Part shown: positions 19,414-61,750 of the stretch, in pieces
Numbering within the stretch: the first letter of the stretch is position 1
Layout of the letters: each line of letters opens with the position of its first letter
Source of the DNA: Winogradskyella alexanderae
GTDB lineage: Bacteria > Bacteroidota > Bacteroidia > Flavobacteriales > Flavobacteriaceae
Direction: 5' to 3'
Length of the DNA: 64,000 nt
NCBI RefSeq assembly: GCF_020166335.1
Contig: NZ_JAIUJR010000003.1
Location: 62,001 to 126,000, forward strand
Translations under genes and position numbers: made by a program
The notes under the pieces: model-generated
What the model saw: only the letters and a program-made list of their open reading frames with translations
Databases searched by the model: none
What the model was told of the DNA's origin: nothing

Positions 19414-19457
19414 ATGACAAAAATCATATTTTTTAAGCACCCTGACAACTAATTTTG
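19414..19457 (+). promoter_or_regulatory. Fnr-type site and -7 element for hemN-usp
   Basis: The palindrome ATGACAAAAATCAT (19414-19427) has the TGA-N6-TCA core spacing of Fnr boxes. A perfect Bacteroidetes -7 element TAATTTTG lies at 19450-19457, centre to centre 33 bp. The predicted transcript starts near 19460, leaving a leader of about 15 bases before the hemN ATG. The site would sit near -40, the position of a class II activator. Confidence 0.8.
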
Positions 19458-19474
19458 AGTAAGATTGATTAGTC

Positions 19475-20839
19475 ATGTGCATTTCCCTAGTAAATAAATA
19501 TAATGTCGCTGGACCACGCTATACCAGTTATCCAACGGTGCCGTATTGGGATGTTAAGACTTTTACTGCGAAAGCTTGGAGGCAATCACTGGTAAAATCA
19601 TTTAATGAGAGTAATTCTAAAAATGGTATTAGTCTCTATATTCACTTGCCATTTTGTGAAAGTTTATGCACATTTTGCGGATGCCAAAAGAGTATTACCA
19701 AAAGACATGAAGTTGAGGAGCCTTATATAAGAGCGCTATTAAAAGAGTGGGAACTATATCGTAATCTACTCGGTTACAAACCCAAAATAAGAGAACTGCA
19801 TATAGGTGGTGGTACACCAACCTTCTTTTCGCCAAATAACTTAAAAAAATTAATTACAGAGTTATTGCATGTCTCTGAAGTAGCGCGTGATTATGAATTT
19901 AGTTTTGAAGGGCATCCCAATAATACCACAAGAGAACATTTACAGGTATTATTTGATTTAGGATATAGACGTGTAAGCTATGGCGTACAAGATTATAATC
20001 CTACAATTCAGAAAGCCATAAATAGGATACAATCCTTTGATAATGTAAAACGGGTTACTGAATGGGCAAGAGAAATAGGGTACACCTCAATAGGTCATGA
20101 CATTATTTTTGGACTACCTTTTCAAACTGAAGGAGATATCATTGAAACTATTGCTAAGACAAGAGCATTAATGCCAGACCGAATAGCATTTTACAGCTAT
20201 GCACATGTGCCATGGATTAAAGGTAATGGTCAACGTGGTTTTAGAGACGAGGATTTGCCAACTCCAGAATCCAAACGACAGCAATATGAAACTGGTAAAG
20301 CTTTGCTGGAAAGGGCAGGTTATCTTGAAATTGGAATGGATCATTTTGCCCTTAAGACGGATTCCCTTTTTAAGGCGATGCAAAACGAAAGTTTACACAG
20401 AAATTTTATGGGATATACCACATCAAAAACCAAAACAATGATTGGACTTGGTGTATCGTCTATAAGTGATAGCTGGTATGGTTTTGCACAAAATGTAAAA
20501 TCTATAGAAGACTATTACAATCTGGTTAACCAAGGGAAATTACCTGTATACAGAGGCCATATTTTAAACAATGAAGATCTAATAATTAGAAAGCACATTT
20601 TAAATCTAATGTGCCACTTCAAGACCTCGTGGTTAGACACGCATATGGCTTTTAAACAGCTACCAGAAGTCCTTATAAAATTAAAAGAATTTGAGCGCGA
20701 CGGTTTACTTGAGTTTGAGAGAAAACAAGTAAGCGTAACTGATAAAGGGAAACCATTTATTAGAAATATATGTATGGCTTTTGATTTGCAATTGCAACGT
20801 AAAAAACCAAACACCCAATTATTTTCAATGACCATATAA
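19475..20839 (+). CDS. hemN: Oxygen-independent coproporphyrinogen III oxidase
   Basis: 454 residues. Radical-SAM enzyme that decarboxylates coproporphyrinogen III to protoporphyrinogen IX without oxygen, needed for haem when oxygen is low. The N-terminus NKYNVAGPRYTSYPTVPYW is diagnostic of true HemN rather than HemW. The iron-sulphur motif is Cys61-x3-Cys65-x2-Cys68-x-Cys70 (PFCESLCTFCGC). GGGTPTFF and RVSYGVQD motifs follow, with a HemN C-terminal domain after about residue 360. The start is the ATG 18 bases after the -7 element. The usp gene follows after 10 bases. Confidence 0.95.
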   Translation: MCISLVNKYNVAGPRYTSYPTVPYWDVKTFTAKAWRQSLVKSFNESNSKNGISLYIHLPFCESLCTFCGCQKSITKRHEVEEPYIRALLKEWELYRNLLGYKPKIRELHIGGGTPTFFSPNNLKKLITELLHVSEVARDYEFSFEGHPNNTTREHLQVLFDLGYRRVSYGVQDYNPTIQKAINRIQSFDNVKRVTEWAREIGYTSIGHDIIFGLPFQTEGDIIETIAKTRALMPDRIAFYSYAHVPWIKGNGQRGFRDEDLPTPESKRQQYETGKALLERAGYLEIGMDHFALKTDSLFKAMQNESLHRNFMGYTTSKTKTMIGLGVSSISDSWYGFAQNVKSIEDYYNLVNQGKLPVYRGHILNNEDLIIRKHILNLMCHFKTSWLDTHMAFKQLPEVLIKLKEFERDGLLEFERKQVSVTDKGKPFIRNICMAFDLQLQRKKPNTQLFSMTI

Positions 20840-20849
20840 AAAAGAAAGA

Positions 20850-21683
20850 ATGAAAAGAATAATAGTACCTATAGATTTTTCTGAGCAATCTGAATTTGCT
20901 CTAGAAGCGGCCGCTAACTTGGCGCAAAAGTATGGTTCTGAACTTATTGTGTTGCATATGCTAGAGTTGTCTAGTGCAATATTAACATCAAATGGTGCAG
21001 CCATTAATGACGAAGCTGTTTTCTACTTGAAGTTGGCCGAACAAAAGTTTGATGCTTTTCTAGATAAACCTTACTTAGAAGGAATAAAAGTTACACCTAT
21101 CGTTAAACACTTTAAAGTTTTTAGTGAAGTCAATGATATTGCTAATGAGCACCAGGCCAACCTCATTGTAATGGGTTCACATGGTGCAAGTGGTGTTAAA
21201 GAAGTTTTGGTTGGTTCAAATACGGAGAAAGTTGTGCGTCATTCTGATATTCCTGTGTTAGTTATTAAGCATAACCCAATTTTGTTGGATTTTGAGAATG
21301 GAGTTTTTGCAAGTGATTTTTCTGAAGATGCTATAAAACCATATCTAAATGCAAGAAGAACCTTCGCTAAACTTGGAGCAAAAATGCATTTGGTATATGT
21401 AAACTCACCTGATGGTAATTTTAGAAGTTCTTCTGAAATTGATAAGAGTGTATCCTTATTCTTGAAGAAGGCCGATGGTGATTTAGATAATCTAGGTAAT
21501 GTACATATAGTATCTGATTATTCTGTTGAAAAGGGTATACTGAATTTTGCGAATATGATAGGTGCAGATTTAATAGCTGTGGCCACACATGGTAGAAAAG
21601 GACTGGCACATTTCTTTGAAGGTAGTATATCTGAGGATATAGCCAACCACAGTACATTGCCAGTAATGACTTTTAAAATATAG
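20850..21683 (+). CDS. Universal stress protein, tandem UspA domains
   Basis: 277 residues, two UspA domains. Domain 1 (1-146) begins KRIIVPIDFSEQSEFALEAA and carries an ATP-binding-type loop GSHGASGVKEVLVGSNTEKV. Domain 2 (about 147-277) keeps ATHGRKGLAHFFEGSISEDI but starts in a degenerate way (GVFASDFSEDAI). Cytoplasmic. It lies 10 bases behind hemN and ends at a strong terminator, so it shares the Fnr-type promoter; oxygen-limitation induction is typical for such Usp proteins. Confidence 0.88.
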   Translation: MKRIIVPIDFSEQSEFALEAAANLAQKYGSELIVLHMLELSSAILTSNGAAINDEAVFYLKLAEQKFDAFLDKPYLEGIKVTPIVKHFKVFSEVNDIANEHQANLIVMGSHGASGVKEVLVGSNTEKVVRHSDIPVLVIKHNPILLDFENGVFASDFSEDAIKPYLNARRTFAKLGAKMHLVYVNSPDGNFRSSSEIDKSVSLFLKKADGDLDNLGNVHIVSDYSVEKGILNFANMIGADLIAVATHGRKGLAHFFEGSISEDIANHSTLPVMTFKI

Positions 21684-21726
21684 TTTCTTGATGTTTATTA
21701 GTTAGTATTGTTTAAAATGTCAAGTT

Positions 21727-21760
21727 AAACGCCAGAGAAGTAATTCTCTGGCGTTTTGTT
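21727..21760. terminator. Bidirectional terminator between usp and tauE-like gene
   Basis: Perfect 13-bp stem AAACGCCAGAGAA (21727-21739) / TTCTCTGGCGTTT (21744-21756) with a 4-base loop and a T-rich tail. It separates the convergent usp (plus) and cco (minus) transcripts. Confidence 0.92.
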
Positions 21761-21786
21761 TTAGATAATAATTAGTAAGTAATTTT

Positions 21787-22488
21787 TTAATGACACTCCA
21801 TTGTACTCGTTGCCATTTCTACAACTGGAGCAGGAGAAATATAAGGTATTCCAAGGCCTAAGCCTCTAAGGATAAATAACACACCTATTATTACAACAAA
21901 TACAGGAATTGCTTTTTGAATATGTTGTTTTACTGTGCTATTCAAAAATTTACCCAAATAAATAGCTGAGGTCATTAAGGGAATTGTTCCTATACCAAAT
22001 AAAATCATGTATAAACTACCTTGTAACAGACTTCCCGTAGCTATAGATCCAAATACGGCCATATAAACTAAACCACAAGGGAGGAAGCCATTTAAAAAGC
22101 CAATTGTTAAAAAGGTATCTCCTGTTTTCTTCTTTAATGCTTTTCCTAGGTTAGATTTTACTTTAGATATTATCTTATGAAGCGGTTTAGAAAGATTGTA
22201 TTTGTTAAACGTATGGTATGGTATTAAAACCACAATAATCATTAAAACACCTATGGCAATTGATAATTGTTGTTGTATCCCGAACAAATAAAGACTTTTA
22301 CCTACTAAGCCAAATACAAGGCCAATAATACTATAGGCTAATAAACGGCCAAAATGGTACATACTAATTTGGCCTATTTTCTTAAATGAATTCTCTCGTT
22401 CTACCGGAAGCATAAAGGCAATTGGCCCGCACATGCCTACACAATGTAAACTTCCCAATAGTCCTAATATCAAGCCAGATAAAAGCAT
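21787..22488 (-). CDS. Sulfite exporter TauE/SafE-like (DsbD-type) membrane protein
   Basis: 233 residues, six helices. Two internally related halves carry LHCVGMCGPIAFMLP (residues about 15-29) and GFLNGFLPCGLVYMA (about 128-142), the paired Cys motifs of the PF13386 family related to DsbD and CcdA. The C-terminus ends MATSTMECH with a Cys-His pair that could bind metal. Placed last in the cbb3 operon, 2 bases after ccoH; in many Bacteroidetes a protein of this family occupies the same place, so a role in oxidase copper or cytochrome assembly is more likely than sulfite export. Confidence 0.8.
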   Translation of the reverse strand: MLLSGLILGLLGSLHCVGMCGPIAFMLPVERENSFKKIGQISMYHFGRLLAYSIIGLVFGLVGKSLYLFGIQQQLSIAIGVLMIIVVLIPYHTFNKYNLSKPLHKIISKVKSNLGKALKKKTGDTFLTIGFLNGFLPCGLVYMAVFGSIATGSLLQGSLYMILFGIGTIPLMTSAIYLGKFLNSTVKQHIQKAIPVFVVIIGVLFILRGLGLGIPYISPAPVVEMATSTMECH

Positions 22489-22490
22489 AT

Positions 22491-22937
22491 TTAATAGTTA
22501 ATTTCGGCCTTGTAGAGATAAGGTTTATTATTGTAAGTCCAGTCTACCTTAATGTTCCAGCGACCATCTAACAAACGGTTGTCAGGTATGAGCAAATTGT
22601 GGTCAGATAATGAAATCGGTGTTTCAAAATCCAATTGTTTATTAGATGGTCTGTATAGGAACACTTTACCTTTAATTTTATTGATTTTCAATTCTTCAGG
22701 GAATGTTATAACAATTCCTTCTTCTGATTTTTTCCAACTTATATTTGTAGTTAATGCTTTTGCATTCTTTTCTTTATCAATATCTTTTTGAAATTCTAGT
22801 TCTTGCTTGTAATAATCTTCAACGACTAAATCATGATCGTATTTATCGTTAGTACTCATATTTACTACGAAGTACATAATAAATCCAATGAAGCATATAA
22901 ATGCTATAACAATTGCCGTTCCCCAGTTTATTTTCAT
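22491..22937 (-). CDS. ccoH: cbb3 oxidase assembly protein CcoH/FixH
   Basis: 148 residues. One N-terminal membrane helix (WGTAIVIAFICFIGFIMYFVV) is followed by DHDLVVEDYYKQELEFQKDID, the FixH signature with VxxxYYxxxxxYQ-like spacing, and a beta-rich periplasmic domain. FixH-type proteins assist maturation of the cbb3 oxidase complex. Located between ccoG (6 bases) and the TauE-like gene (2 bases) in the cco operon. Confidence 0.9.
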   Translation of the reverse strand: MKINWGTAIVIAFICFIGFIMYFVVNMSTNDKYDHDLVVEDYYKQELEFQKDIDKEKNAKALTTNISWKKSEEGIVITFPEELKINKIKGKVFLYRPSNKQLDFETPISLSDHNLLIPDNRLLDGRWNIKVDWTYNNKPYLYKAEINY

Positions 22938-22943
22938 AGTTTT

Positions 22944-24368
22944 TTAATTAAAGCTTCGTGGACCTAAGAAACTTACTGTTGTTGTTTCAATGAGTCGCTC
23001 ACCGCTGTAAACATCTATTCTAATTTTCTTTTTATCACCGCCAATATCACTTTGTTTCATTTCAATGAACATGGTCCCTTCAGCTAATCCTTGAGCATCA
23101 ACAGTAACTTCTCCTGTTGCTGAAACGAGTTTAATTGTACCGTTTATACCTCTAAGTTTAAAACTAACGTCTTCTATGGTTTCACTTGTTTTATTAACCA
23201 ACTTGTAGGTAAAAACATTACTAATAATATTATTTTCTTTATGCTCATAGAGTTGTCCAGGTAATCTCAAAACTCTCGCCTCTACATCATTTCTTAATGC
23301 TAACATACCCAGCAATACACCAATAAGAATAACAAGCACAGCAATATAGCCTTTCATGCGTGCTGTTAATTTAAATGGCGTTTTCTTTTCAATATTTTCC
23401 TCACTTGCATAACGGATTAATCCTTTAGGTAAATTTATTTTCTCCATTATGGAATCGCACTCGTCAATACATGCGGTACAATTAACACATTCCAATTGTG
23501 TCCCATTTCTTATGTCAATACCAGTAGGGCAGACATGTACACATTGAAAACAGTCAATACAATCGCCATGACCCAATGCCTGGCGATCTTCATTTTTCTT
23601 AAACTTTTTACGACCGTTTTCACCTTCACCACGTTTATGGTCATAGGCTACGACGATTGATTTTGTATCCAAAAGGACACCTTGCAATCGCCCGTATGGA
23701 CAAGCGATAATACAGACTTGTTCTCTAAACCAGGCAAATACAAAATAGAATACACCAGTGAATATGATTAAAGGTATAAGTGTACCCATATGTTCACTCG
23801 GTCCTTCTTTTATGTATCGCAACAGTTTGTCACTACCAATTAAATAGGCCAAGAAAATATTTGAAATTAGGAAAGATATAACTAGAAAGATGAACCATTT
23901 GGTTACACGTTTTCTAATTTTCTCTGCATCCCACTTCTGGCGAGCTAATTTCATTTGCTTGTTGCGATCGCCGTCAATCCAATATTCAATACGTCTAAAT
24001 ACCATTTCCATAAAAATGGTTTGAGGACAAACCCAACCACAAAATATTCTACCAAAACCAACGGTAAAAAGTGTAATAAAAACAACACCAATAATCATGG
24101 AGATTACAAACAAATGGAAGTCTTGTGGCCAAAACGGAAATCCGAAAATATTAAATCTTCTTTCTAATACATTGAACATTAGAAATTGATTGCCATTTAT
24201 TTTAATGAATGGCGAAACAAATAAAAACGCTAATAAGAAATAGCTAACTAATTTTCGCTTTTCATATAAGGGGCCTGAAGGTTTTTTAGGAAATATCCAG
24301 TTGCGTTTACCTTCTTCATCTATTGTGGCAATTGAATCTCTAAATACTTCGTTTGATGGTGCTTCCAT
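22944..24368 (-). CDS. ccoG: Cytochrome c oxidase accessory protein CcoG/FixG/RdxA
   Basis: 474 residues. A polytopic N-terminal half has WVCPQTIFMEMVFRRIEYWI, CPYGRLQGVLLD and helices; two 4Fe-4S clusters follow in the motif GDCIDCFQCVHVCPTGIDIR and ECVNCTACIDECDSI (residues about 255-300); then a helix (ILIGVLLGMLAL) and a C-terminal Ig-like FixG domain. CcoG reduces Cu(II) for insertion into the cbb3 oxidase. Position between ccoP and ccoH is canonical. Confidence 0.95.
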   Translation of the reverse strand: MEAPSNEVFRDSIATIDEEGKRNWIFPKKPSGPLYEKRKLVSYFLLAFLFVSPFIKINGNQFLMFNVLERRFNIFGFPFWPQDFHLFVISMIIGVVFITLFTVGFGRIFCGWVCPQTIFMEMVFRRIEYWIDGDRNKQMKLARQKWDAEKIRKRVTKWFIFLVISFLISNIFLAYLIGSDKLLRYIKEGPSEHMGTLIPLIIFTGVFYFVFAWFREQVCIIACPYGRLQGVLLDTKSIVVAYDHKRGEGENGRKKFKKNEDRQALGHGDCIDCFQCVHVCPTGIDIRNGTQLECVNCTACIDECDSIMEKINLPKGLIRYASEENIEKKTPFKLTARMKGYIAVLVILIGVLLGMLALRNDVEARVLRLPGQLYEHKENNIISNVFTYKLVNKTSETIEDVSFKLRGINGTIKLVSATGEVTVDAQGLAEGTMFIEMKQSDIGGDKKKIRIDVYSGERLIETTTVSFLGPRSFN

Positions 24369-24389
24369 CTTGATGTGCTTTTACCTTTA

Positions 24390-25373
24390 CTAATTATTTG
24401 AGGCTACGGTCGTTGTTTCCATCGTTTCAACTGCATCTTCGGTAGTTGATTCTTCTTCGTTACCTTCTTCAGTTTCATTGCCAGTTTCTCCTGCACTTTC
24501 ATCTACCCAAATTTCACCTTCAGGATCCTTAGGATTGGCTGGTGTAGTACCTTGGAACTGTAGTAAGTAACTTGATACCTGTGCAATTTCTAGTGGCTTT
24601 AAACTCGCTTTCCACGCAACCATACCTTTACCATCTCTACCACCTTCAGAAACCGTTTTAAAAACATTCTTTATTCCACCACCTAATATCCAATAGTTGT
24701 CTGTTAGGTTTGGTCCAATACCGCCACCACCGTCTGCCATATGACATACCACACAGTTAGTTTCGAATATTTTTTGGCCGGCATTTAAATCAGCTGCCTC
24801 GGTTAAGACTTCAACAGTATTTATGTCAACCAAGTTTTTAGCAGTTTTTTTGTATTCTTCGATTGCGCGCTGGGCTTCGGCATATTCTATTTCATATTCT
24901 GCAAATTGGTCGTCTGCATTAAATACATGATAACGCACCATATAAACAACTCCAAATATTATGGTTGCATAAAAACCATAGAGCCACCAAGGAGGTAAAC
25001 TGTTGTCTAATTCTTTAATACCGTCATAATTATGGTCTAATATAATTTCACCTTCTTGCTCAATTGGTTTAGATCCAAGAAGTTTTTGGTAAGTATCCTT
25101 GACCCAAACAACTAATTTAGAGGGCGCAGCCCGTTTTGCATCATATCTAGCTTTGGCTTCTTCATCCAAGCTCTGGTACAAAATATTATCCATAGAACCC
25201 ACAATACCTTCAATTGCCAACAGCACAAGAAGCACAAGTAATAAGAATAGCATTATAACCGGTTGTTCCATAAAAGCTGGTTGGTCACCAGATTCTACAA
25301 AGTATTCAACTAGTCCTACAATAATGAAAAACACTATCGGAACCCTGATGTATGATGGAATTAAATTTCTCAT
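24390..25373 (-). CDS. ccoP: cbb3-type cytochrome c oxidase subunit III, monohaem
   Basis: 327 residues. Two N-terminal helices (about 10-25 and 38-58) precede the FixP N-terminal motif YDGIKELDNSLPPWWLYGFY with a third helix (133-149). One cytochrome c domain has Cys207-x2-Cys210-His211 (NCVVCHMADGGG) and the later Met ligand in GKGMVAWKASLKP. Proteobacterial CcoP normally has two haem c domains; only one CxxCH is present here. A highly acidic tail (290-327) ends the chain. Overlaps ccoQ by 4 bases. Confidence 0.92.
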   Translation of the reverse strand: MRNLIPSYIRVPIVFFIIVGLVEYFVESGDQPAFMEQPVIMLFLLLVLLVLLAIEGIVGSMDNILYQSLDEEAKARYDAKRAAPSKLVVWVKDTYQKLLGSKPIEQEGEIILDHNYDGIKELDNSLPPWWLYGFYATIIFGVVYMVRYHVFNADDQFAEYEIEYAEAQRAIEEYKKTAKNLVDINTVEVLTEAADLNAGQKIFETNCVVCHMADGGGGIGPNLTDNYWILGGGIKNVFKTVSEGGRDGKGMVAWKASLKPLEIAQVSSYLLQFQGTTPANPKDPEGEIWVDESAGETGNETEEGNEEESTTEDAVETMETTTVASNN

Positions 25374-25558
25374 GATGTTGTGTCGTTTTGATGGTTATCT
25401 AAAGGTATATTACTTACAGTTTTGATGTATTCTTTTTTTGCAGTAAAAACCCAATAGAATAAGACTACAAAAAATATAAAGAATATGAGGAGCGAAATAA
25501 TCGGGTATATTTCTATACCTGTTATACTTTCCATATGATTTTTTACGAATTTTAACAT
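25370..25558 (-). CDS. ccoQ: cbb3 oxidase subunit CcoQ/FixQ-like
   Basis: 62 residues. N-terminal MLKFVKNHMESITGIEIYPI, one helix (LLIFFIFFVVLFYWVF) and the TAKKEYIKTVSNIPLDN segment after it, with the hydrophobic-basic pattern of CcoQ. It is a small stabilising subunit of the cbb3 complex. Its start overlaps nothing, but its stop shares 4 bases with the ccoP start, so they are translationally coupled; 6 bases separate it from ccoNO. Confidence 0.82.
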   Translation of the reverse strand: MLKFVKNHMESITGIEIYPIISLLIFFIFFVVLFYWVFTAKKEYIKTVSNIPLDNHQNDTTS

Positions 25559-25564
25559 GGCTGA

Positions 25565-27757
25565 TTAGTTTTGAGCTGTTTTACTTACATCCTTAACCTT
25601 TATATCGGTACCTAGTCGTTGCAGATACGCAATCAATGCAACTATTTCTCTATTGCGCATTTCTACAAAATCAGCTCCAGCTGAAGCTTTGTCTGCTTCA
25701 TAAGCTTTAACAAAATCAGGATCTGCATATAGATTCTTTTCAATCTGGGTTCCTTGCTCTAGCATTGCTTGTTGTGCACTCGCAATGTCTTCTTCAGTGT
25801 AAGGAACTCCAAGACTTACCATAGTCTCCATTTTCTTTTCGGTCATAGATTTATCCAATTCATTTTTAATTAGCCATTGGTATGCTGGCATTATAGATCC
25901 ACTCGATGTACTTTGTGGATCGTACATATGGTTAAAGTGCCAGTTATCTGAATACTTACCACCGACTCTGTGTAAATCTGGTCCAGTACGTTTACTTCCC
26001 CATAAGAATGGATGATCGTAAACATATTCTCCAGCTTTAGAGTATTCACCACCATAACGCTCAACTTCACTTCTAAATGGTCTTACCATTTGTGAATGAC
26101 ATCCAACACAACCTTCTCTAATGTAAAGGTCTCGACCTTCTAATTCTAGCGGTGTATATGGTTTAACACTGCTGATTGTTGGAATATTAGATTTTACTAC
26201 TAAGGTTGGGACAATCTGAACGATTCCACCAATCAATATGGCTACAGTAGCATATATTGTTAATAATACTGGTTTACGCTCTAACCAAGTGTGCCATCCT
26301 TCACCAGCAACACGACCTTTAGCCACGCGCTTAAGTGCAGGTGCTTCAGCCAATTCATCTGTTACCTTATTTCCTGATCTAGCAACAGTTACAATAACGT
26401 TGTAAACCAAGATTAACATACCCGTAATGTACAAAGTACCTCCAATGGCCCTCATCCAGTACATAGGGATAATTTCTGTAACGGTTTCTAAAAAGTTACC
26501 ATAAACCAATGTGCCGTCTGGATTGAATTGTTTCCACATACTAGCTTGTGTAAATCCAGCAACGTACATTGGTAAGGCATATAGGATTATACCTAATGTT
26601 CCTACCCAGAAATGTAAGTTTGCCAGACCAACTGAATGCAGTTTTGTTTTAAACAGTCGCGGTATTAACCAATAGATCATACCAAAGGCTAAGAAACCGT
26701 TCCATGCTAATGCACCAACATGCACGTGAGCAATAATCCAATCTGTAAAGTGTGCAATTGCATTTACGTTTTTCAGCGAAAGCATTGGGCCTTCAAATGT
26801 TGCCATACCGTATCCTGTAATAGCAACAACCATGAACTTTAGTACTGGATCTGTACGTACTTTATCCCAGGCACCACGTAAGGTTAATAGACCGTTTATC
26901 ATACCACCCCAAGATGGTGCAATAAGCATAACCGAAAATGCAACACCTAAATGCTGTGCCCATTCTGGTAGCGCTGTATAAAGTAAATGGTGAGGGCCAG
27001 CCCAGATATAGATAAAAATTAAAGACCAGAAGTGTACAATTGATAGTCTGTAAGAGTACACAGGTCTGTTAGCCGCTTTAGGAACAAAGTAATACATCAG
27101 TCCTAAAAAAGGTGTTGTAAGGAAAAATGCTACTGCATTATGCCCATACCACCATTGCACCAAGGCATCTTGAACACCAGCATATACTGAATAGCTTTTA
27201 AGGCCACTTACAGGTAATTCTAAACTATTAAAAATATGAAGAACAGCAACTGTAACAAATGTAGCGATGTAGAACCATATCGCAACGTATAAGTGCCGTT
27301 GTCGACGTTTAAGAATAGTTCCAATCATGTTAACTCCAAAGGCAACCCAAATGAGGGCAATGGCGATATCGAATGGCCATTCTAATTCGGCATATTCTTT
27401 GGATGTTGTAAAGCCTAGTGGTAATGTTAATGCGGCACCTACAATGATCAACTGCCAGCCCCAAAAGTTAATGTTACTTAACAAGTCACTAAACATTCTT
27501 GCTTTAAGTAAACGCTGCAGAGAGTAATAAACACCTGCAAAAATAGCGTTACCTACAAAGGCAAAAATAACAGCATTGGTGTGTAAAGGTCTTAAACGAC
27601 CAAAGCTTAACCAAGATATACCATCGGTTACATTTGGGAATAAAAACATGTAAGCCAAAAGCAAACCTACCAACATCCCAACTACTCCCCAAAGTATCGT
27701 GGCGTAAAGGAATTTTTTAACGATTTTATTATCGTAGTAAAATTGTTGCATTTCCAT
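25565..27757 (-). CDS. ccoNO: cbb3 oxidase CcoN-CcoO fusion, catalytic plus monohaem subunit
   Basis: 730 residues. The CcoN part (1 to about 460) has about 12 helices with the expected ligands: His59 ([10 protein letters not shown]), CuB ligands His206 (YGHNAVAFF) and His256-His257 (AGPHHLLY), and haem ligands His344/His346 ([13 protein letters not shown]). The CcoO part follows a short linker and one helix (about 497-520) and has Cys550-x2-Cys553-His554 ([15 protein letters not shown]) and a later [11 protein letters not shown]et ligand. It reduces oxygen to water at high affinity. The N-O fusion is typical of Bacteroidetes. Confidence 0.96.
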
Positions 27758-27770
27758 ATTAATAATCTAA

Positions 27771-27956
27771 TTAGTCAGTTTTTGAATTTATTGATTCGTT
27801 TGATGTTTCTTTTACGAGTTCGTCTTCAAACAGCATACGTACGGAAGGGGTATAACTATCGTCATACTGGCCTGATTTAACAGCCAATAAAAACACGACA
27901 AAGAAGGCAATGCCAACAATGACGCTAACAGTTAAAACAATATATATAACACTCAT
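27771..27956 (-). CDS. ccoS: cbb3 oxidase maturation protein CcoS
   Basis: 61 residues. N-terminal MSVIYIVLTVSVIVGIAFFVVFLLAVKSGQYDD is the CcoS signature: one helix followed by a K-x-GQ-(Y/F)-DD motif. The tail is hydrophilic. CcoS is needed for insertion of redox cofactors into CcoN. It is the first gene of the cco operon and lies 13 bases before ccoNO. Confidence 0.92.
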   Translation of the reverse strand: MSVIYIVLTVSVIVGIAFFVVFLLAVKSGQYDDSYTPSVRMLFEDELVKETSNESINSKTD

Positions 27957-27973: not shown

Positions 27974-28020
27974 GTTCAAAAATAATTTTGAACGAGTTTT
28001 TAAAACATGACATTTATCAT
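27974..28020 (-). promoter_or_regulatory. Fnr-type site and promoter of the cco operon
   Basis: The palindrome ATGACATTTATCAT at 28007-28020 is followed, reading the minus strand, by a perfect -7 element TATTTTTG (27977-27984); centre distance 33 bp. The -7 element is embedded in a second perfect inverted repeat, GTTCAAAA-ATAA-TTTTGAAC (27974-27993). Predicted transcription start is near 27973, about 16 bases before the ccoS ATG. Confidence 0.8.
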
Positions 28021-28030: not shown

Positions 28031-30406
28031 TTATTTTAATTTTCTGCCTATCAAATTTGTACATATGGTTGTAAATACCACAATACTGATAGAACTCAAA
28101 GGCATTAATATTGCAGCCACAACAGGAGCTAGTTGTCCGGTTACTGCAAAGTATAAGCCAATGACATTATATATAAACGAGAGTACAAAACTCCACTTGA
28201 TAATTTTAATACCTGATTTTGAAGCGCTAATAAATTTATAGAGCGAATTTAACTTTGTTGCATCCAAAATGGCATCACAAGCAGGAGAAAATACATTTAC
28301 ATCTTCAGAAATGGCGATACCAACACTACTTTGTGCTAATGCACCCGCATCATTAAGTCCGTCGCCAATCATCAGTACTTTGGCACCTTCATTTTGGTGG
28401 TATTTTATAAACTCGAGCTTATCATCCGGTTTTTGATTGAAGATTAGCTTTGTTTTAGCGGGTAAAAGCTTTTCAAGATTTTTGCGCTCACCTTCATTAT
28501 CTCCGGATAAAATGGCCAAATCGTAATTATTTTTTAGCTGGTTAAATAGTTTTGAAATACCTTTCCGGTAGCTGTTATAAAATGTAAATTTCCCTTTATA
28601 CTTATTATTACTGCTTATGTGCACGGTTGTATTGAGTGTGGCATTATGATCCTCATTACCTACAAAACTTGCAGACCCAACCTTTAAACTGATATTATCA
28701 TAGGTGGCTTCAATTCCTTTGCCAATGTGCTCTTTATAATTATCAAGTGTCACAATGTTATTTTCTTCTAAGATTTGGTATAAGGTTCTGCTCAAAGGAT
28801 GATTGGAACCGCGTAATGAATTTTTAAGAACAAGACTTTCTGAGTCCGTTAAACTTAGACCATCATAAACTGCATTGCTAGTTTTATTGGAGGTTATTGT
28901 ACCGGTTTTGTCGAAAATAATGGTGTTGATATGTGCTAACTGTTCAATAACACTAGCATTTTTAATATAGAATTTAAGTTTTCCAAAAATGCGTAATAAG
29001 TTGCCAAAAGTAAAAGGTGCAGATAATGCTATGGCACAAGGACAAGCAATAATTAAAACTGCGGTAAACACATTCATAGCTTTGCTAGCATCAGTGAATA
29101 GCCAGTAAGTGGTTGCAATAACCGCAATGGTTAAAATAGTGATAGTGAAGTGCTTGCTTATTTTGTTTGTAATGTTTGAGAATTGATCTTCCTTGTTTTT
29201 ACTGAATACATCATTACTCCACAATTGTGTGAGATAACTTTGTTCAACGGATTTTAGAGCTTCCAGTTCAATTACGCCAGAGGTCTGTTTGCCACCAGCA
29301 AATAGTTTGTCGCCAGATTTCTTTCTAACCGATTGCGATTCACCAGTAACAAAGCTGTAGTCAATTTTTGCATTTCCATTTATAAGAATACCATCAACAG
29401 GAATCAGCTCTTCATTTCTTATTAAAAGACGGTCCCCCTTTTTTATGTCATAGACTTGAACCGCCTCCTCACTTCCATTTCTATTGATTTTAGTTATAGC
29501 AATAGGGAAGTAGGATTTATAGTCACGTTCAAAAGATAGAAAATCATATGTTTTTTGCTGAAAAAACTTACCCACCAATAAAAAGAATACCAAACCAGAA
29601 AGACTATCGAAAAAACCAGAACCTAAATCAAAAACAATTTCTATGGTACTACGCAAGAAGAGTACGGTAATACCTAATGCAATAGGCACATCTATATTCA
29701 GAAGTTTTGCTCTAAGGCCTTTAAAAGCCGAAATAAAATAATCTTGCGCAGAATAAAACACAACAGGAACTGAAAGTGCAAACATGAGCCATCTAAACAT
29801 GTGTTTGTATTGTTCTAACCAGAACTCATTGATTTCAAAGTACTCTGGAAAAGATAAAAACATAATATTACCAAAAGCAAAACCGGCAACACCAAGTTTA
29901 TAAATAAGCGTTCTGTTAATCTGTTTTTTTCCAGCACTAAAGTCGTCTAAACTTATGTAAGGCTCGTAACCTATGGTACTTAAGAGTAAGACAACTTCTT
30001 TAAGATTCGTAGCTTCTGGATTATAAGTAACCCTAACTGTTTTTTTACCGAAGTTTACCTGAGAATCAGAGATGTCTTTGTTAAGTTTATTCAAGTTTTC
30101 GAGTATCCAGATACAAGAACTGCAATGAATATGAGGTATATAAAGTGTCACAATTTCTAATTGCTCACTTCTAAATTCGGTTAGTTTTTCAATGATGTTG
30201 TCTCGGGAAAGGAAATCGTATTTTCCTTCTATTTCTTTTGGCACTGCGCCTGGTGATTGCTGTAGATCGTAGTAACAGGTTAAATCGTTCTCATTAAAGA
30301 TCTCATAAACCGTTTTGCAACCGTTACAGCAGAATATTTTATCATCAAAAGCTATGGGATGTTGACCACAGTCATCACCGCAATGAAAACAAGATTTGTT
30401 TTCCAT
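28031..30406 (-). CDS. ccoI: Copper-transporting P1B ATPase CcoI/FixI
   Basis: 791 residues. An N-terminal Cys-rich metal-binding part (CFHCGDDCGQHP, FCCNGCKTVYEIF) precedes an HMA domain with HCSSC (Cys95/Cys98). Eight-helix P-type core: TGES (354-357), CPC (455-457), phosphorylation motif DKTGT (499-503), HP (NHPLSRTL) and GDGLNDAGAL. Exports or delivers copper for cbb3 oxidase assembly. It has its own Fnr-type promoter, divergent from fnr, and is followed by the cco operon in the same direction. Confidence 0.95.
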   Translation of the reverse strand: MENKSCFHCGDDCGQHPIAFDDKIFCCNGCKTVYEIFNENDLTCYYDLQQSPGAVPKEIEGKYDFLSRDNIIEKLTEFRSEQLEIVTLYIPHIHCSSCIWILENLNKLNKDISDSQVNFGKKTVRVTYNPEATNLKEVVLLLSTIGYEPYISLDDFSAGKKQINRTLIYKLGVAGFAFGNIMFLSFPEYFEINEFWLEQYKHMFRWLMFALSVPVVFYSAQDYFISAFKGLRAKLLNIDVPIALGITVLFLRSTIEIVFDLGSGFFDSLSGLVFFLLVGKFFQQKTYDFLSFERDYKSYFPIAITKINRNGSEEAVQVYDIKKGDRLLIRNEELIPVDGILINGNAKIDYSFVTGESQSVRKKSGDKLFAGGKQTSGVIELEALKSVEQSYLTQLWSNDVFSKNKEDQFSNITNKISKHFTITILTIAVIATTYWLFTDASKAMNVFTAVLIIACPCAIALSAPFTFGNLLRIFGKLKFYIKNASVIEQLAHINTIIFDKTGTITSNKTSNAVYDGLSLTDSESLVLKNSLRGSNHPLSRTLYQILEENNIVTLDNYKEHIGKGIEATYDNISLKVGSASFVGNEDHNATLNTTVHISSNNKYKGKFTFYNSYRKGISKLFNQLKNNYDLAILSGDNEGERKNLEKLLPAKTKLIFNQKPDDKLEFIKYHQNEGAKVLMIGDGLNDAGALAQSSVGIAISEDVNVFSPACDAILDATKLNSLYKFISASKSGIKIIKWSFVLSFIYNVIGLYFAVTGQLAPVVAAILMPLSSISIVVFTTICTNLIGRKLK

Positions 30407-30431: not shown

Positions 30432-30491
30432 CAAAGGTGACATTATCATCAAACTAAAAATATGATATTTGTCATGTTTGTGTTATATTTG
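30432..30491. promoter_or_regulatory. Shared Fnr-type site between ccoI and fnr
   Basis: Palindrome ATGATATTTGTCAT at 30462-30475. Toward ccoI (minus strand) a near-consensus -7 element CACCTTTG lies at 30432-30439, exactly 33 bp centre to centre. Toward fnr (plus strand) a perfect TATATTTG lies at 30484-30491, only 19 bp from the site, so a bound regulator would overlap polymerase there. Predicted outcome: activation of ccoI and autorepression of fnr. Confidence 0.7.
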
Positions 30492-30514: not shown

Positions 30515-31192
30515 ATGAGTAAATGTGAATCTTGTATTGTTAAAGAATTTAATTCATTAAAAGCTTTGACAAGAGAAGAACTAATGCGAGTTTCTAACTG
30601 TAAAACGGGTAAAATCTTCAAAAAAGGTCAGGTAGTTTTTGAAGAAGGCGAAACTTTAAATGGCGTGTACTGTGTTAAAGATGGCGTCTGCAAACTGACC
30701 AAACTTAGCGAAAACGGAAAAGACCAAGTCGTAAAATTGGTTGTTAAAGGCGGTCTATTAGGAAAGCGCTCTTTGGTTACGGAGCAAAAAACAAATTTAA
30801 GTGCTATTGCGTTAAGCGATATGGAGATGTGTTTTATTCCGAAAAGCGAAATCATGGAAGATCTTCAAAAAAATCCAAAATTTACAATGGATGTTTTAAA
30901 GAAAATGGCACACGACCTTAAGGAATCAGACGAGTCTTTGGTCAATATGGCTCAAAAATCGGTTAAGCGCAGAATGGCGGAAATTCTTATGTATATCCAT
31001 GATAATTTTGGGACTGATGACGAAGATTACCTCAGTATAGTAATCTCAAGGGAAGATTATGCGAGTATTGTAGGTACAGCTACAGAATCTGCCATTCGTA
31101 TCTTGTCTCAATTTAAAAAGGAAGGAATTATCTCAACACGTGGTAAGCAAATTAGGATTGAAGATTATTCGGCCTTAAAATGGATGGAATAG
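30515..31192 (+). CDS. Crp/Fnr-family transcription regulator, Fnr-like
   Basis: 225 residues. A cyclic-nucleotide-type beta roll (about 30-125), dimer helix (126-150) and winged HTH (about 150-215) with recognition helix GTATESAIRILSQF carrying Glu191 and Arg195 in the positions that Fnr uses to read TGA. Cysteines at 4, 7, 29 and 106 resemble the Cys set holding an oxygen-sensitive 4Fe-4S cluster in Fnr (three N-terminal plus one in the roll); 53 and 59 are extra. The Fnr residue Ser212 position is Ile194 here. Lies between cco genes and lactate dehydrogenase and is the likely reader of the ATGA-N6-TCAT sites. Confidence 0.88.
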   Translation: MSKCESCIVKEFNSLKALTREELMRVSNCKTGKIFKKGQVVFEEGETLNGVYCVKDGVCKLTKLSENGKDQVVKLVVKGGLLGKRSLVTEQKTNLSAIALSDMEMCFIPKSEIMEDLQKNPKFTMDVLKKMAHDLKESDESLVNMAQKSVKRRMAEILMYIHDNFGTDDEDYLSIVISREDYASIVGTATESAIRILSQFKKEGIISTRGKQIRIEDYSALKWME

Positions 31193-54487: not shown

Positions 54488-54504
54488 AGTTTGTTGGACG
54501 ATTC

Positions 54505-56941: not shown

Positions 56942-57209
56942 AGTAGTTTTTGCAAATAATTAGTCGGATTAGTACGAAAATATGAAAATCTCTTCTATAA
57001 TTATGACTAATTGAATAATGCTTGTTGTTTTTTTAACAAAATTTTGGAAATTCTATATTTCATAACTATCGTTTGTCAAAATTAAGTGTTTAGTTGAAGG
57101 TGATACTTAATTTTGAAAGTGGTGTAATAATTTAACATATTTGACTTCCCTTATTTCAAACGTTTTCGCTCAAAAACCCTTTAATTATAAGGTGTTGAAA
57201 AAGTAAAAC

Positions 57210-57253
57210 ATGATAAAAATCAGCATTCCCAATTTATTTCAAAATTAATTTTG
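57210..57253 (+). promoter_or_regulatory. Fnr-type site and promoter of pflB
   Basis: ATGATAAAAATCAG at 57210-57223 (last base off the palindrome) and a perfect -7 element TAATTTTG at 57246-57253, centre distance 33 bp. The predicted start near 57257 gives a leader of about 42 bases. These lie in the 357-base gap between the acyl-CoA synthetase and pflB; the remaining 270 bases of that gap hold no gene or repeat that I can see. Confidence 0.78.
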
Positions 57254-57298
57254 TAGCGTTAAGAAACGAAAATAGTTAAGAAATAAAACCATATAATC

Positions 57299-59524
57299 AT
57301 GGAAGTAAAACCATTCTTGGATGGTCTCTGGACCGAATCAGTTAATGTAAGAAGTTTTGTTTTTAATAACATTACGCCATACCATGGCAATGCTGAATTT
57401 TTAGAAGGTCCAACATTTAGAACTAAAAAGCTCTGGAGTATTTGTAAAAAAGCAATGGCTGAAGAACGTAATAATAATGGTATACGTTCAATCGATACTG
57501 AAACCATTTCTACAATTGATGCATTTGATCCTGGCTATATTGATAAGGAAAGTGAAGTAATTGTTGGATTACAAACAGACGACCTTTTAAAACGAACAAT
57601 GAAGCCATTTGGTGGCTTTAAAGTGGTAAATAAGGCCCTATCTGAATATGGTCTAAAACCAAATAAAAAAATAAAAGAGTTATTCTCAAAATATGTAAAA
57701 ACCCATAATGATGGTGTTTTTGATGCGTATAACGATGAGATTAAAAAGTACCGTTCATTAGGTATCCTTACAGGATTACCAGATAATTATGCAAGAGGTC
57801 GAATTATTGGCGATTACAGACGCCTTGCACTTTACGGACTAGATTTTCTAATTAAAAAGAAAACGGAAGATCTGGCAAAGGTTACTGGTCCAATGACTGA
57901 TGATGTTATACGGTTACGTGAAGAAATATCTGAACAGATCAAGGCATTGAGAGCCATGAAACGTCTAGGTGACAAGTATGGCTTAGATTTAAGTAGACCT
58001 GCTCAAAATGCCCAAGAAGCCGTACAATGGACCTACATGGCTTACTTGGCGGCTGTAAAAGAACAAGACGGAGCAGCTATGTCTTTAGGTAATGTTTCTA
58101 CATTTTTAGACATCTATATTGAAAATGATTTACAGAAGGGAAGAATTACTGAAGCTGAAGCCCAGGAGTATATTGACCAGTTAGTGATGAAATTAAGAAT
58201 GGTACGTCATTTAAGAATGAAGGCTTATGAAGAAATTTTTGCTGGTGATCCAACATGGGTAACTGAGGCTATTGGTGGTATGTTTTCGGACAGCAGAACA
58301 AAAGTGACAAAAACGTCTTTCCGATTCTTGAATACACTTTATAATTTAGGACCATCACCAGAACCAAATATGACTGTATTATGGTCTGAGGATTTACCAG
58401 AAAACTTCAAAAAATTCTGTGCAAAAGTTGCCATCGAAACATCATCATTGCAATTTGAAAATGACCGATTAATGCGCGAATTACGCCATAGTGATGATTA
58501 CGGAATTGCGTGTTGTGTTTCACATCAAGATTTAGGTAAATCCATTCAATTTTTTGGTGCAAGAACCAACTTGGCTAAAACGCTATTACTGGCGCTTAAT
58601 GGTGGTCGATGCGAGCTTACCGGAGTCCAAATATTTGAAGGTGTTCCATTAGATAAAGATGAGTATTTAGATTTCGATAAAGTGATGACCAACTTCAAAA
58701 TCGCAATGCAAGAAATCGCCCGAGTTTACAGTGATACTATGAATATCATTCATTTTATGCATGATAAGTATTACTATGAAAAAGCCCAAATGGCCTTGAT
58801 TGATACAAATCCGCATATTAATATTGCATATGGCATTGCAGGTTTATCAATAGTGGCAGATTCATTATCTGCTATTAAGTATGCTAAAGTAAAACCTGTG
58901 CGTAACGAAAAAGGTTTAACTGTAGATTTTAAAATAGAAGGTGAATTTCCTAAATATGGAAATGATGACGATCGTGTGGACCAATTGGCTGCGCAAGCAG
59001 TTTCAGATTTTAATCATGAGCTCAAACAGTTTCCTGTTTACAAAAATGCAGAACCTTCATTATCTGTTTTAACCATAACTTCTAATATTGCTTACGGCAG
59101 AAAAACTGGAGCTACACCTGATGGTAGGGCACAGGGTGTGCCATTTGCACCAGGAGCAAACCCTATGCAAGGACGTGACGAAAATGGAGCTATTGCGTCA
59201 TTAAATTCAGTAGCTAAAATTAACTACAGCGATGCACAAGATGGTATTTCAAATACATTTTCAATTGTACCAAAATCCTTAGGTCCTGATATTGAAACGA
59301 GAGTTGAAAACCTAACATCAATTCTAGATGGTTATTTTGAGAACAATGCACAGCACATCAATATAAATGTATTGGATAAAGAGACATTACTAGACGCGAT
59401 GAAGCATCCTGAAAATTACCCGCAACTTACAGTTAGGGTTTCTGGTTATGCGGTAAATTTTGTGAGACTCACGAGAGAGCAACAAATAGAGGTCATTTCA
59501 AGGTCGTTCCATGAAATGATGTAA
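57299..59524 (+). CDS. pflB: Pyruvate formate-lyase (formate C-acetyltransferase)
   Basis: 741 residues, full length. Splits pyruvate and CoA into acetyl-CoA and formate by a glycyl radical. The catalytic Cys405-Cys406 pair ([11 protein letters not shown]) and the radical Gly716 ([10 protein letters not shown]), 25 residues from the end, are both present, as is the [11 protein letters not shown] substrate-binding block. The enzyme is destroyed by oxygen, so expression should be limited to anoxia, matching the Fnr-type promoter. The activase follows after a terminator-like hairpin. Confidence 0.96.
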
Positions 59525-59536
59525 AAAGGTCTAACC

Positions 59537-59577
59537 AAAGCATCTGAAAACAAGACGATTTTTCAGGTGCTTTTTTT
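59537..59577 (+). terminator. Terminator-like hairpin between pflB and pflA
   Basis: 14-bp stem AAAGCATCTGAAAA (59537-59550) / TTTTCAGGTGCTTT (59560-59573) with a single G-U pair, followed by a run of T (seven from 59571). It should stop a fraction of transcripts between pflB and pflA. The right arm contains the GTG that starts the pflA frame. Confidence 0.85.
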
Positions 59578-60337
59578 ATCAGAGATTATAAAAACGCAAG
59601 ATAACATACTAAATGTACACTCCATTGAATCATTTGGCACTCATGATGGTCCAGGAGTGCGATTTGTTATATTTCTTCAAGGATGTAAACTTAAGTGCCT
59701 GTATTGTCATAATCCTGATACAATTGGTTTAGAAGGGGGTAAACCCTATCATATTGAGACTCTATTTAGTTTAATACTAAAATCAAAACCTTATTTTGGC
59801 AAAAATGGTGGTGTTACGGTATCAGGTGGTGAACCATTGCTGCAGGCTAAAGCGCTTATTCCTTTATTTAAGAAATTGAAAGAAGCAGGTATTCATACAG
59901 CATTGGATACAAATGGAAGAATATTAAATCATTTTGCACAAGAGCTTCTGGATGCGTATACAGATCTAGTGATGCTCGATGTAAAGCATATGACTGAAGA
60001 GGGATACCAATATATTACTGGGATGAAGAATAAAGAAACGACATTTAATTTTTCAAGATATAGGGAACTATCGAGCAAGCCAATGTGGTTGCGCTATGTT
60101 CTAATACCGGGACTAACTGATCAAACAGAGCTTTTACAATCAATGGGAAATTACTTTAAAAACTATAAAACCATTGAAAGACTAGAAATTCAACCATATC
60201 ACAAATTAGGTGTTCATAAATGGGATGCTTTAGGTTGGGACTATAAATTAAAAAATGCTAGAGAAAATACGATAGAAGAAATTGAACATGCTGTTCAAAC
60301 TTTAAAACCTTACTTTAAAAAAGTAGTTGTAAATTGA
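59567..60337 (+). CDS. pflA: Pyruvate formate-lyase activating enzyme
   Basis: 256 residues counted from GTG 59567. Radical-SAM motif Cys40-x3-Cys44-x2-Cys47 (GCKLKCLYCHNPD) after NVHSIESFGTHDGPGVRF, and GGVTVSGGEPLLQ. It installs the glycyl radical in PflB. The family normally starts three or four residues before VHSIES; no ATG is present there, so the start is either the GTG inside the hairpin or an unusual ATT/ATA codon at 59582-59610. The enzyme is needed only in catalytic amounts. Confidence 0.92.
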   Translation: MLFLSEIIKTQDNILNVHSIESFGTHDGPGVRFVIFLQGCKLKCLYCHNPDTIGLEGGKPYHIETLFSLILKSKPYFGKNGGVTVSGGEPLLQAKALIPLFKKLKEAGIHTALDTNGRILNHFAQELLDAYTDLVMLDVKHMTEEGYQYITGMKNKETTFNFSRYRELSSKPMWLRYVLIPGLTDQTELLQSMGNYFKNYKTIERLEIQPYHKLGVHKWDALGWDYKLKNARENTIEEIEHAVQTLKPYFKKVVVN

Positions 60338-60365
60338 ATATACTATAAGAACTAATGATAACTAA

Positions 60366-61634
60366 ATGAAATTAGATATGAATACTCCTAAATTAAAAAA
60401 CCGTTGGTTAATTGCACTTTCTGCCGTAGGAATTCATATATCAATTGGTTCGGTTTATGCCTATTCTGTAATTACTAATCCGGTTAAGGAAATTTTTGAT
60501 GTTGAAGGAAGTGTCATAAAATGGGCCTTTAAAATAGCAATCTTATTACTTGGCTTTTCAGCTGCTTTCCTTGGTCCTTGGGTAGAAAGGGTTGGTCCAA
60601 AAGTAAGTGGAACCACGGCAGGTATTTTTTATGGAATAGGAATTCTAGGCTCAGGTTTGGCCGTACAATTAGAGTCTTTGGTTTTGTTCTACCTCTGTTA
60701 TGGTGTAATTGGTGGTATAGGTCTTGGTCTAGGCTATATTACTCCCGTAAGTACGCTTGTTAAGTGGTTTCCTGACAAAAGAGGCTTAGCAACTGGCATG
60801 GCTATAATGGGATTTGGATTTTCTGCTTTAATCTTTGGTCCTGTTATGCAAACGTTCTTCGAAGCAGTTGGTGTAGCAAATGCTTTCTTTTTATTAGGTC
60901 TTATTTACATGATTCTTATACTTTCATCTGCAAGATATATTGAGCGTCCTCCTGAAGGCTATTTACCAGATGGTTACAAGCCAGGGCAATCTAAAACGGT
61001 AAAAGCAGACATATCTAATGTTACTGCAAGAGAAGCCTTAAGGTCGTCACGTTTTATCTACATATGGTTAATGATGTTTATAAATATAACTTGTGGTATT
61101 GCAATTATTGCGGCTGCAAGTCCAATGATGCAGGAGAAATTGAGCTACACACCAATGCAAGCGGCTACGGTGGTTGGTTTAATAGGTGTCTTTAACGGAC
61201 TGGGTAGGATTATTTGGTCAGGATTATCAGATTATCTAGGTCGTCCAAACACTTATATTATATTTTTTGCATTTCAAATTTTAGCATTCTATTTTTTACC
61301 TCAGATTACTATTGAGATAGTATTTTTAATTATTCTTTTTACTGTAATAACGATGTATGGTGGGGGTTTTGCAACACTTCCTGCATTCTTGGGAGATTTG
61401 TTTGGTACCAAACAGCTTGGTGCTATCCATGGAATGGTTTTGGCAGGTTGGGGACTTGCAGGCGTCATAGGTCCGACGATCTACGATGTAGTCAAAAATA
61501 CCACGGGATCACTCGACATCACCTTAAAGGTGTTTAGCGGTTTATTCGTGGTTGCTTTGATAGTTTCATTTTTAATGAAACGCTCTGTAAAAAAGGCTTA
61601 TTCCAAAATGGAGAACAGTACTCTTGTAGCCTAA
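60366..61634 (+). CDS. OFA-family major facilitator transporter
   Basis: 422 residues, 12 helices. Family signs: WLIALSAVGIHISIGSVYAYSV at the N-terminus, a Gly-rich helix (GVIGGIGLGLGYITPVSTLVKWFPDKRGLATGMAI, about 115-150) and GLGRIIWSGLSDYLGRP in the second half. OFA members exchange oxalate/formate or related carboxylates; beside pflBA the likely cargo is formate, lactate or pyruvate (inference). Start could be Met5 (60378). It lies 28 bases after pflA, same strand. Confidence 0.85.
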   Translation: MKLDMNTPKLKNRWLIALSAVGIHISIGSVYAYSVITNPVKEIFDVEGSVIKWAFKIAILLLGFSAAFLGPWVERVGPKVSGTTAGIFYGIGILGSGLAVQLESLVLFYLCYGVIGGIGLGLGYITPVSTLVKWFPDKRGLATGMAIMGFGFSALIFGPVMQTFFEAVGVANAFFLLGLIYMILILSSARYIERPPEGYLPDGYKPGQSKTVKADISNVTAREALRSSRFIYIWLMMFINITCGIAIIAAASPMMQEKLSYTPMQAATVVGLIGVFNGLGRIIWSGLSDYLGRPNTYIIFFAFQILAFYFLPQITIEIVFLIILFTVITMYGGGFATLPAFLGDLFGTKQLGAIHGMVLAGWGLAGVIGPTIYDVVKNTTGSLDITLKVFSGLFVVALIVSFLMKRSVKKAYSKMENSTLVA

Positions 61635-61706
61635 TTTTATGCAATTTTCTTAATCATGTTTATTGACCTTATTAATTCATATTAATGTCAAAACTTTTTC
61701 TGATAG

Positions 61707-61750
61707 ATGATAATTATCATGTAAATTCTTCCGTATTACATCTACTTTTA
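61707..61750 (+). promoter_or_regulatory. Fnr-type site and promoter of ppdK
   Basis: Perfect palindrome ATGATAATTATCAT at 61707-61720. A -7-like element TACTTTTA (last G replaced by A) at 61743-61750 is 33 bp away centre to centre. Predicted start near 61754, leader about 51 bases. Confidence 0.7.

Follow-up and report, generated by a model that had tools for sequence, protein, structure and literature searches.

How an activator works on the unusual promoters of the Bacteroidota, which are abundant in oceans and guts, is little known, and the question is raised by a 64-kb stretch of the Winogradskyella alexanderae genome (contig C33:62001-126000 of a 3.31-Mb genome; the window in what follows), in which five palindromes of the form ATGA-N6-TCAT, exact or nearly so, precede hemN, ccoS, ccoI, pflB and ppdK at one distance from an element resembling TAnnTTTG, the -7 element of Bacteroidota sigma-A. 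The palindrome, more fully ATGAY-N4-RTCAT, at a fixed 33 bp from that element is likely, with a probability of roughly 0.8, to be the site from which Crp/Fnr-family activators would, when oxygen is low, bring in the housekeeping polymerase of the Bacteroidota. This proposal is drawn, at the level of sequence, from the fixed spacing, its dependence on the box, the genes downstream, the cysteines and the recognition helix conserved in the regulator encoded in the window, and the co-occurrence of the sites with two regulator families.

Boxes and promoter elements in the window

Distances are given below as the gap, the number of bp from edge to edge between the palindrome and the TAnnTTTG-like element, so that gap 22 corresponds to 33 bp from centre to centre. 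The five sites and their genes are the following.

19414..19427, + strand: box ATGACAAAAATCAT of hemN, exact, 22 bp from TAATTTTG
19450..19457, + strand: -7 element TAATTTTG of hemN
19475..20839, + strand: hemN, oxygen-independent coproporphyrinogen III oxidase (TIGR00538, 436.6 bits, above cut-off)
28007..28020, - strand: box ATGATAAATGTCAT of ccoS-ccoNO, exact, 22 bp from TATTTTTG
27977..27984, - strand: -7 element TATTTTTG of ccoS
27771..27956, - strand: open reading frame (ORF) of 61 residues ahead of ccoNO, ccoS by position; its counterpart L200 in genome G086 matches Pfam FixS
25565..27757, - strand: ccoNO, fused cbb3 oxidase subunits I/II (NF011053, 1347 bits, above cut-off)
30462..30475, both strands: box common to ccoI and the regulator gene, ATGATATTTGTCAT on + and ATGACAAATATCAT on -
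30432..30439, - strand: element CACCTTTG facing ccoI, 22 bp from the box
28031..30406, - strand: heavy-metal P-type ATPase, ccoI by position and context
57210..57223, + strand: box ATGATAAAAATCAG of pflB, one mismatch
57246..57253, + strand: -7 element TAATTTTG of pflB
57299..59524, + strand: pflB, formate C-acetyltransferase (TIGR01255, 1103.6 bits, above cut-off)
59567..60337, + strand: pflA, pyruvate formate-lyase activating enzyme (TIGR02493, 280.9 bits, above cut-off)
61707..61720, + strand: box ATGATAATTATCAT of ppdK, exact
61743..61750, + strand: element TACTTTTA of ppdK, one mismatch
61805..64000, + strand: ppdK, pyruvate, phosphate dikinase, running past the window end (TIGR01828, 1024.8 bits, above cut-off)

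A first reading of the window from its letters (the sequence-only reading) had reported these five sites with a constant 33-bp offset, and all five exist; on the side of the gene named, each palindrome lies exactly 33 bp from a -7-like element. The same reading had written all five palindromes as ATGA-N6-TCAT; this is correct for the four at 19414, 28007, 30462 and 61707, while that at 57210 departs from the form by one base, a point it did not mention. Its description of the -7 elements is confirmed, three of the five being exact TAnnTTTG (hemN, ccoS and pflB) and the other two carrying one mismatch (ccoI and ppdK). At ccoS the box recurs with the same spacing and at the same place in most of 36 related loci.

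The count of palindromes alone is weak evidence, the window holding six exact copies of ATGA-N6-TCAT with 2.06 expected, and at least six being reached in 4 of 100 shuffles; it is the spacing that carries the weight. When at most one mismatch in all is allowed, five sites fall at gap 22, against nine in total, and at most two each, for the 35 remaining gaps between 5 and 40. Two exact palindromes, at 10662 and 46321, lack an element at gaps 21 to 23; both overlap coding ORFs and look like chance.

The TAnnTTTG element is numbered -12 to -5 in the promoter descriptions of PMC9723704 and PMC6847099. An element at -12 to -5 has its centre at -8.5, and the centre of the palindrome is then at -41.5. 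At class II promoters CRP and FNR are classically centred at -41.5, and the box would accordingly occupy a class II site when the start is taken from the published numbering of the element. The box of E. coli FNR is TTGAT-N4-ATCAA; that the box found here is unlike it holds for the outer base, which is changed; the TGAY/RTCA core is kept.

The spacing in genome, genus, family and class

The searches were extended from the W. alexanderae genome to its genus and to a sample of 119 Flavobacteriaceae genera, one genome being counted per genus, with the same searches run with a reversed pattern as control; in the family counts the exact pattern is ATGAY-N4-RTCAT together with TAnnTTTG. In the own genome, gaps 8 to 38 give 16 matches (reversed, 5), of which nine lie at gap 22, three at gap 21 and one at gap 23. 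The genome-wide search for the box with an element 33 bp away, suggested by the sequence-only reading, returned nine exact matches against two with the reversed pattern. Eight of the nine are intergenic and directed at a gene; the ninth (C22:210398) lies inside an M1 peptidase gene and was dropped as coding, probably a chance match. Among the matches listed for the genus together with the own genome, the ATGAY/RTCAT form stands at gap 22 in 51 of 79 cases and other forms in none of 46.

In the family sample, 728 matches were obtained at gaps 8 to 38, against 87 reversed, and among the 150 matches listed (21 of the 119 genomes) 99 are at gap 22, 11 at gap 23 and 6 at gap 21. The exact pattern occurs at gap 22 493 times in 100 of the 119 genera, and once when reversed; at gap 27, half a helical turn away, it is found four times in 4 of 119 genomes (reversed, 3). 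The family-wide excess at a single spacing is strong, and many low-oxygen genes lie downstream. Chance in an AT-rich genome has on its side the shuffles mentioned above and the match inside a gene, but in view of these spacing counts and of the single reversed match at gap 22 its probability is negligible.

The constant spacing might also have been inherited from a few ancestral promoters, such as those of cco, hemN and nos, rather than selected, and several sites are indeed orthologous across genera. Yet the 51 genus sites at gap 22 are mixed in base use in the middle of the spacer while its ends and its length are kept, many unrelated genes carry the pattern, and the matches at gap 27 are so few beside those at gap 22 that this explanation is scarcely credible.

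In the genomes listed for other families of the order, 1 of 9 sites is at gap 22. In the class Bacteroidia (197 genomes), the 150 matches listed come from 36 genomes, none of them Flavobacteriaceae, and 50 are at gap 22, 16 at gap 23 and 9 at gap 21; the geometry is therefore wider than the family.

Genes behind the boxes

The intergenic gap-22 sites of the own genome face hemN, ccoS, pyruvate kinase, a 2-oxoacid:acceptor oxidoreductase, PPK2, a FadL-type outer-membrane protein, formate-tetrahydrofolate ligase and a cytochrome c-fasciclin-nosZ cluster. For a wider survey, 60 of 61 listed gap-22 sites were fetched from 13 genera with only one of the two regulators described below, one member per group being scanned. 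By a lenient rule each of the 60 has an ORF downstream, and 27 precede nos-type cytochrome, cco, hemN, nor-like, 2-oxoacid oxidoreductase, pta, Rrf2 or fnr genes: the first gene is a homolog of the cytochrome c ahead of nosZ in the own genome in 8 cases, ccoNO behind a small ORF in 6, ccoS in 1, hemN in 6 and pta in 2, with one case each of a cytochrome with a weak nor match, a 2-oxoacid oxidoreductase, Rrf2 and fnr. A further 16 precede nadA, HPF, Usp or thioredoxin-like genes (four each), and the remaining 17 first genes include MlaE, YceI, alginate-export porins and unknowns.

In F. psychrophilum, the cbb3 oxidase and heme genes are reported to be induced at low oxygen (PMC9723704), and the words Fnr and Crp do not occur in the main text of that paper. 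The open-access literature searched gave no published Fnr box of a flavobacterium; a Crp/Fnr homolog in a Flavobacteriales metagenome-assembled genome is described in PMC8510549 as MalR-like, with a predicted role in carbon sensing.

Two target promoters are divergent. The palindrome before the nos cluster of the own genome (G000:C48:127027-127101) faces on its other side an Rrf2-type regulator gene, with an element at gap 23, and the gap-23/gap-22 pair recurs in G087, G159 and G176, where the genes were partly checked; one site may serve both directions. The site before the FadL-type outer-membrane gene (G000:C22:307652, L005) lies in a divergent promoter shared with a type III sulfide:quinone reductase gene.

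The Fnr-like regulator P0001

The box at 30462 is common to ccoI and to a gene for a Crp/Fnr-family protein on the opposite strand.

30484..30491, + strand: -7 element TATATTTG directed at the regulator gene, separated from the box by 8 bp (centre of the box at -27.5)
30515..31192, + strand: Crp/Fnr-family regulator P0001, 225 residues, with Cys4, Cys7, Cys53 and Cys106

P0001 matches the cyclic nucleotide-binding domain (PF00027, 68.2 bits) and the Crp helix-turn-helix domain (PF13545, 54 bits) of Pfam, both above cut-off, and its nearest named relatives belong to Winogradskyella, of the Flavobacteriaceae. Foldseek with the AlphaFold model returns the Crp/Fnr fold, the best match being 2gau, with the holo-FNR of Aliivibrio fischeri in the top 20. 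Cys4, Cys7, Cys53 and Cys106 are present, together with E191, I194 and R195, in 63 of 63 aligned relatives, and Cys29 and Cys59 in 60 of 63. The L032 row of this alignment is the second copy of a tandem pair, and the script rule passed over L031, L045 and L048; these three and the first L032 copy, checked separately, also have Cys4, Cys7, Cys53 and Cys106. Cys4, Cys7 and Cys106 align with cysteines of A. fischeri FNR, the counterpart of Cys106 being FNR Cys122; the cluster cysteines of FNR are Cys20, 23, 29 and 122. The tandem pair belongs to Winogradskyella ludwigii, where the second copy (L032:6807-7481) is identical to P0001 in 135 of 225 residues (60%) and has the same cysteines and helix residues.

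In its recognition helix P0001 has TATESAIR, against LTVETISR in FNR, as compared with the A. fischeri row and, in a second alignment, with an E. coli row. The recognition helix of FNR is E-xx-S-R, and P0001 does not conform to it, E191 and R195 being kept and Ile194 standing in the place of Ser in all 63 relatives. The conserved Glu and Arg match the residues that read the GA core in CRP and FNR.

The divergent promoter was followed in 37 loci, the window and 36 related ones, the identity of the gene opposite the regulator as ccoI being checked in the window. A palindrome with at most one mismatch lies upstream of the regulator in 35 of the 37 loci, three of them doubtful; L036 and L038 have none at this place. 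Away from the regulator, an AnnTTTG element stands at gap 22 in 32 of the 35, its first base being C, G or A and never T. This missing T of the element facing ccoI (30432-30439 in the window), found in 32 of 32 loci, is a conserved weakness, and it may make the promoter dependent on the activator. Toward the regulator, TAnnTTTG with at most one mismatch is found at gap 8 or 9 in 28 loci. L039 was scored on the wrong near-match, and this arrangement is absent from L048 and L049. Self-repression of the regulator gene is predicted, since a box with its centre at -27.5 overlaps the core promoter. In L045 and G138 the regulator gene has gap 22 instead, and self-activation is predicted there. The sequence-only reading had overlooked that the 30462 site is also the regulator's own promoter, at another position and probably repressive.

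A second regulator and the number of sites

A search of the own genome for the Crp helix-turn-helix gave five genes. One of them, P0122, outside the window, joins a receiver domain to a Crp-type part in one chain, and its gene directly adjoins genes for a PAS histidine kinase and Usp. DosP and FixL are the best solved relatives of the first PAS domain of this kinase and of that of the G106 kinase, and the histidine by which those proteins bind heme is aligned; the Arg of FixL is kept in the G106 kinase and not in the first PAS domain of the own kinase. In G106 and G146, the kinase, fusion, usp and fnr genes form one cluster near ccoI (fnr and ccoI being recognised by eye). The helix of the fusion, GVATETFIR, shares E..IR with P0001.

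Presence of the two regulators was scored at E<=1e-60 in the 119 genera. The mean number of exact gap-22 sites per genome is 7.38 with both (n=34), 3.10 with the Fnr-like protein only (n=42), 4.19 with the fusion only (n=26) and 0.18 with neither (n=17). The same box and spacing, with similar box composition, occur ahead of cco, hemN and nos-type genes in Fnr-only and in fusion-only genera. Since box and spacing are kept with either regulator and the sites are about twice as many with both, a single activator is too simple. The sequence-only reading had argued for one class II activator: its class II geometry is supported under the published numbering, its "one" is not, as two regulator families appear to use the box.

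That the box belongs to the fusion alone, a FixJ and a FixK in one chain, with the Fnr-like protein at 30515 binding something else, is improbable. Fusion-only genera such as G164, G174, G137, G080 and G088 do keep the box, the spacing and the core genes, and the helices of the two proteins are alike in E..IR, but 38 of the 42 Fnr-only genera carry the exact pattern, and the box precedes the Fnr-like gene itself at nearly all loci surveyed.

It is still less probable that the palindrome is the site of an unrelated regulator outside the Crp/Fnr families which co-occurs with low-oxygen genes. Binding of the box by P0001 or the fusion is a prediction, and both regulators co-occur with cco; on the other hand, TGAY-N4-RTCA equals the FNR core and the conserved Glu and Arg match readers of the GA core, and the position -41.5 is that of class II. 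Moreover, the number of sites follows the two Crp/Fnr families, which that of an E. coli-like box, TTGAY-N4-RTCAA, hardly does (per genome 2.09 with both, 1.90 with Fnr only, 1.46 with fusion only and 1.65 with neither).

Results that limit the proposal

A number of results weigh against reading the box as a Crp/Fnr activator site of low-oxygen genes, or narrow it. The E. coli-like box likewise peaks at gap 22 (30 of 150 among the matches listed), which led us to abandon the view that only ATGA boxes have the fixed spacing. The location of gap-22 sites relative to genes is only modestly special: none of 20 lies inside a gene, compared with 6 of 20 sites at other gaps, and the start of a long ORF is no more than 100 bp away in 13 of 20 compared with 9 of 20. 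The claim that all targets have low-oxygen functions fails, pyruvate kinase, PPK2 and ppdK not being obviously of that kind.

As regards P0001, its score with the NCBIfam Fnr model is 86.7 bits, below the cut-off of 228, and in the alignment with A. fischeri FNR the third N-terminal cysteine of FNR has no counterpart; the invariant Cys53 is a candidate substitute ligand, judged from conservation. The AlphaFold model has a mean predicted local distance difference test score (pLDDT) of 73.5, and with residues 1-6 below 50 it is unable to place the cysteines or the geometry of a cluster.

As regards co-occurrence, the number of sites differs between genomes with both regulators and those with Fnr only (P=2.7e-8) or fusion only (P=1.2e-4) in rank tests that treat genera as independent, which phylogenetically they are not. 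Sites are missing in 4 of 42 Fnr-only and 1 of 26 fusion-only genomes, and 3 of the 17 genomes with neither regulator have one. In addition, ccoNO is present in 2 of these 17 and in 99 of the 102 genomes with a regulator; the near absence of sites is therefore at least partly a loss of targets, which weakens the contrast between no regulator and no sites. Five genomes alone separate loss of the regulator from loss of cco. G074 and G162, with cco, no regulator above threshold (weaker homologs at 1e-44 and 1e-51) and no site, fit the link to the regulator, as do G077 and G121, with a regulator, no cco and two sites each; G079, with Fnr, no cco and no site, does not help it. The difference between both regulators and Fnr only is less open to the objection of target loss, although fusion-bearing genera may simply have more low-oxygen genes.

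Proposed mechanism and relation to known systems

A flavobacterial Fnr-type box at the class II position is well supported by these comparisons. In the proposed mechanism, P0001 would hold a [4Fe-4S] cluster through Cys4, Cys7, Cys106 and probably Cys53, would dimerise at low oxygen, and would read the box through a helix with the Glu and Arg of FNR and Ile in the place of Ser. The dimer at -41.5 would touch the polymerase in the class II manner. At the ccoI/regulator promoter, one dimer would activate ccoI from -41.5 and repress its own gene from -27.5. The receiver-Crp fusion, beside its FixL-like kinase, may convey a second oxygen signal to this box and may replace the Fnr-like protein in some genera.

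To a wider picture we give even odds: one low-oxygen regulon of the Flavobacteriaceae with one -41.5 box and two oxygen sensors, an FNR-like Fe-S protein with Cys53 as a rewired fourth ligand and a fused FixJ-FixK chain with a FixL-like heme kinase, in which sensors are gained and lost from genus to genus while box, spacing and targets are retained, and in which autoregulation of the Fnr gene alternates between repression (-27.5) and activation (-41.5). If true, the family would offer a clear example of a single operator whose control is shared, and perhaps exchanged, between two sensors. With a searchable box and an exact spacing, a regulon for low oxygen and denitrification (cco, hemN, nos and pfl) could be predicted for the whole family, and class II activation on a TAnnTTTG promoter would become directly testable.

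The control works like that of FNR and FixK, yet P0001 fails several tests of FNR proper. With FNR of E. coli and A. fischeri the system shares the Crp fold, the N-terminal CxxC, the cysteine at the place of FNR Cys122, the TGAY-N4-RTCA core, the position -41.5 as given by the published numbering, low-oxygen targets and a site in the regulator's own promoter; it differs in the outer base of the box (A for T), in the Ile for Ser of the helix, in having the invariant Cys53 and no third-position Cys, and in the Bacteroidota -7 element in place of -10. FixL-FixJ-FixK of rhizobia is similar in that a PAS kinase closest to FixL/DosP lies next to a response regulator and cbb3 genes are among the targets; in contrast, receiver and Crp DNA-binding part are here in one protein, which would merge the steps of FixJ and FixK and appears to use the same box as the Fe-S-type regulator. 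The ANR/DNR/NnrR-type regulators of denitrification are comparable in their target genes (nos-type and one nor-like gene), and the outer base of the box differs.

Other boxes at the same spacing

The E. coli-like box gives 217 matches in the 119 genera against 93 reversed. In 11 of the 30 gap-22 matches listed for it the letters TAGG stand as in TTGAYnTAGGTCAA, a second box class spread over the family (for example G086, G169 and G069). This class probably belongs to another Crp/Fnr-type regulator with the same geometry, and may be nearer to the ANR/DNR/NnrR-type regulators. A set of sites at gap 21 (G000:C3:60835, G032:C44:19918 and others) has spacer letters in common up to TAAATTTG, and may be one orthologous promoter or another system.

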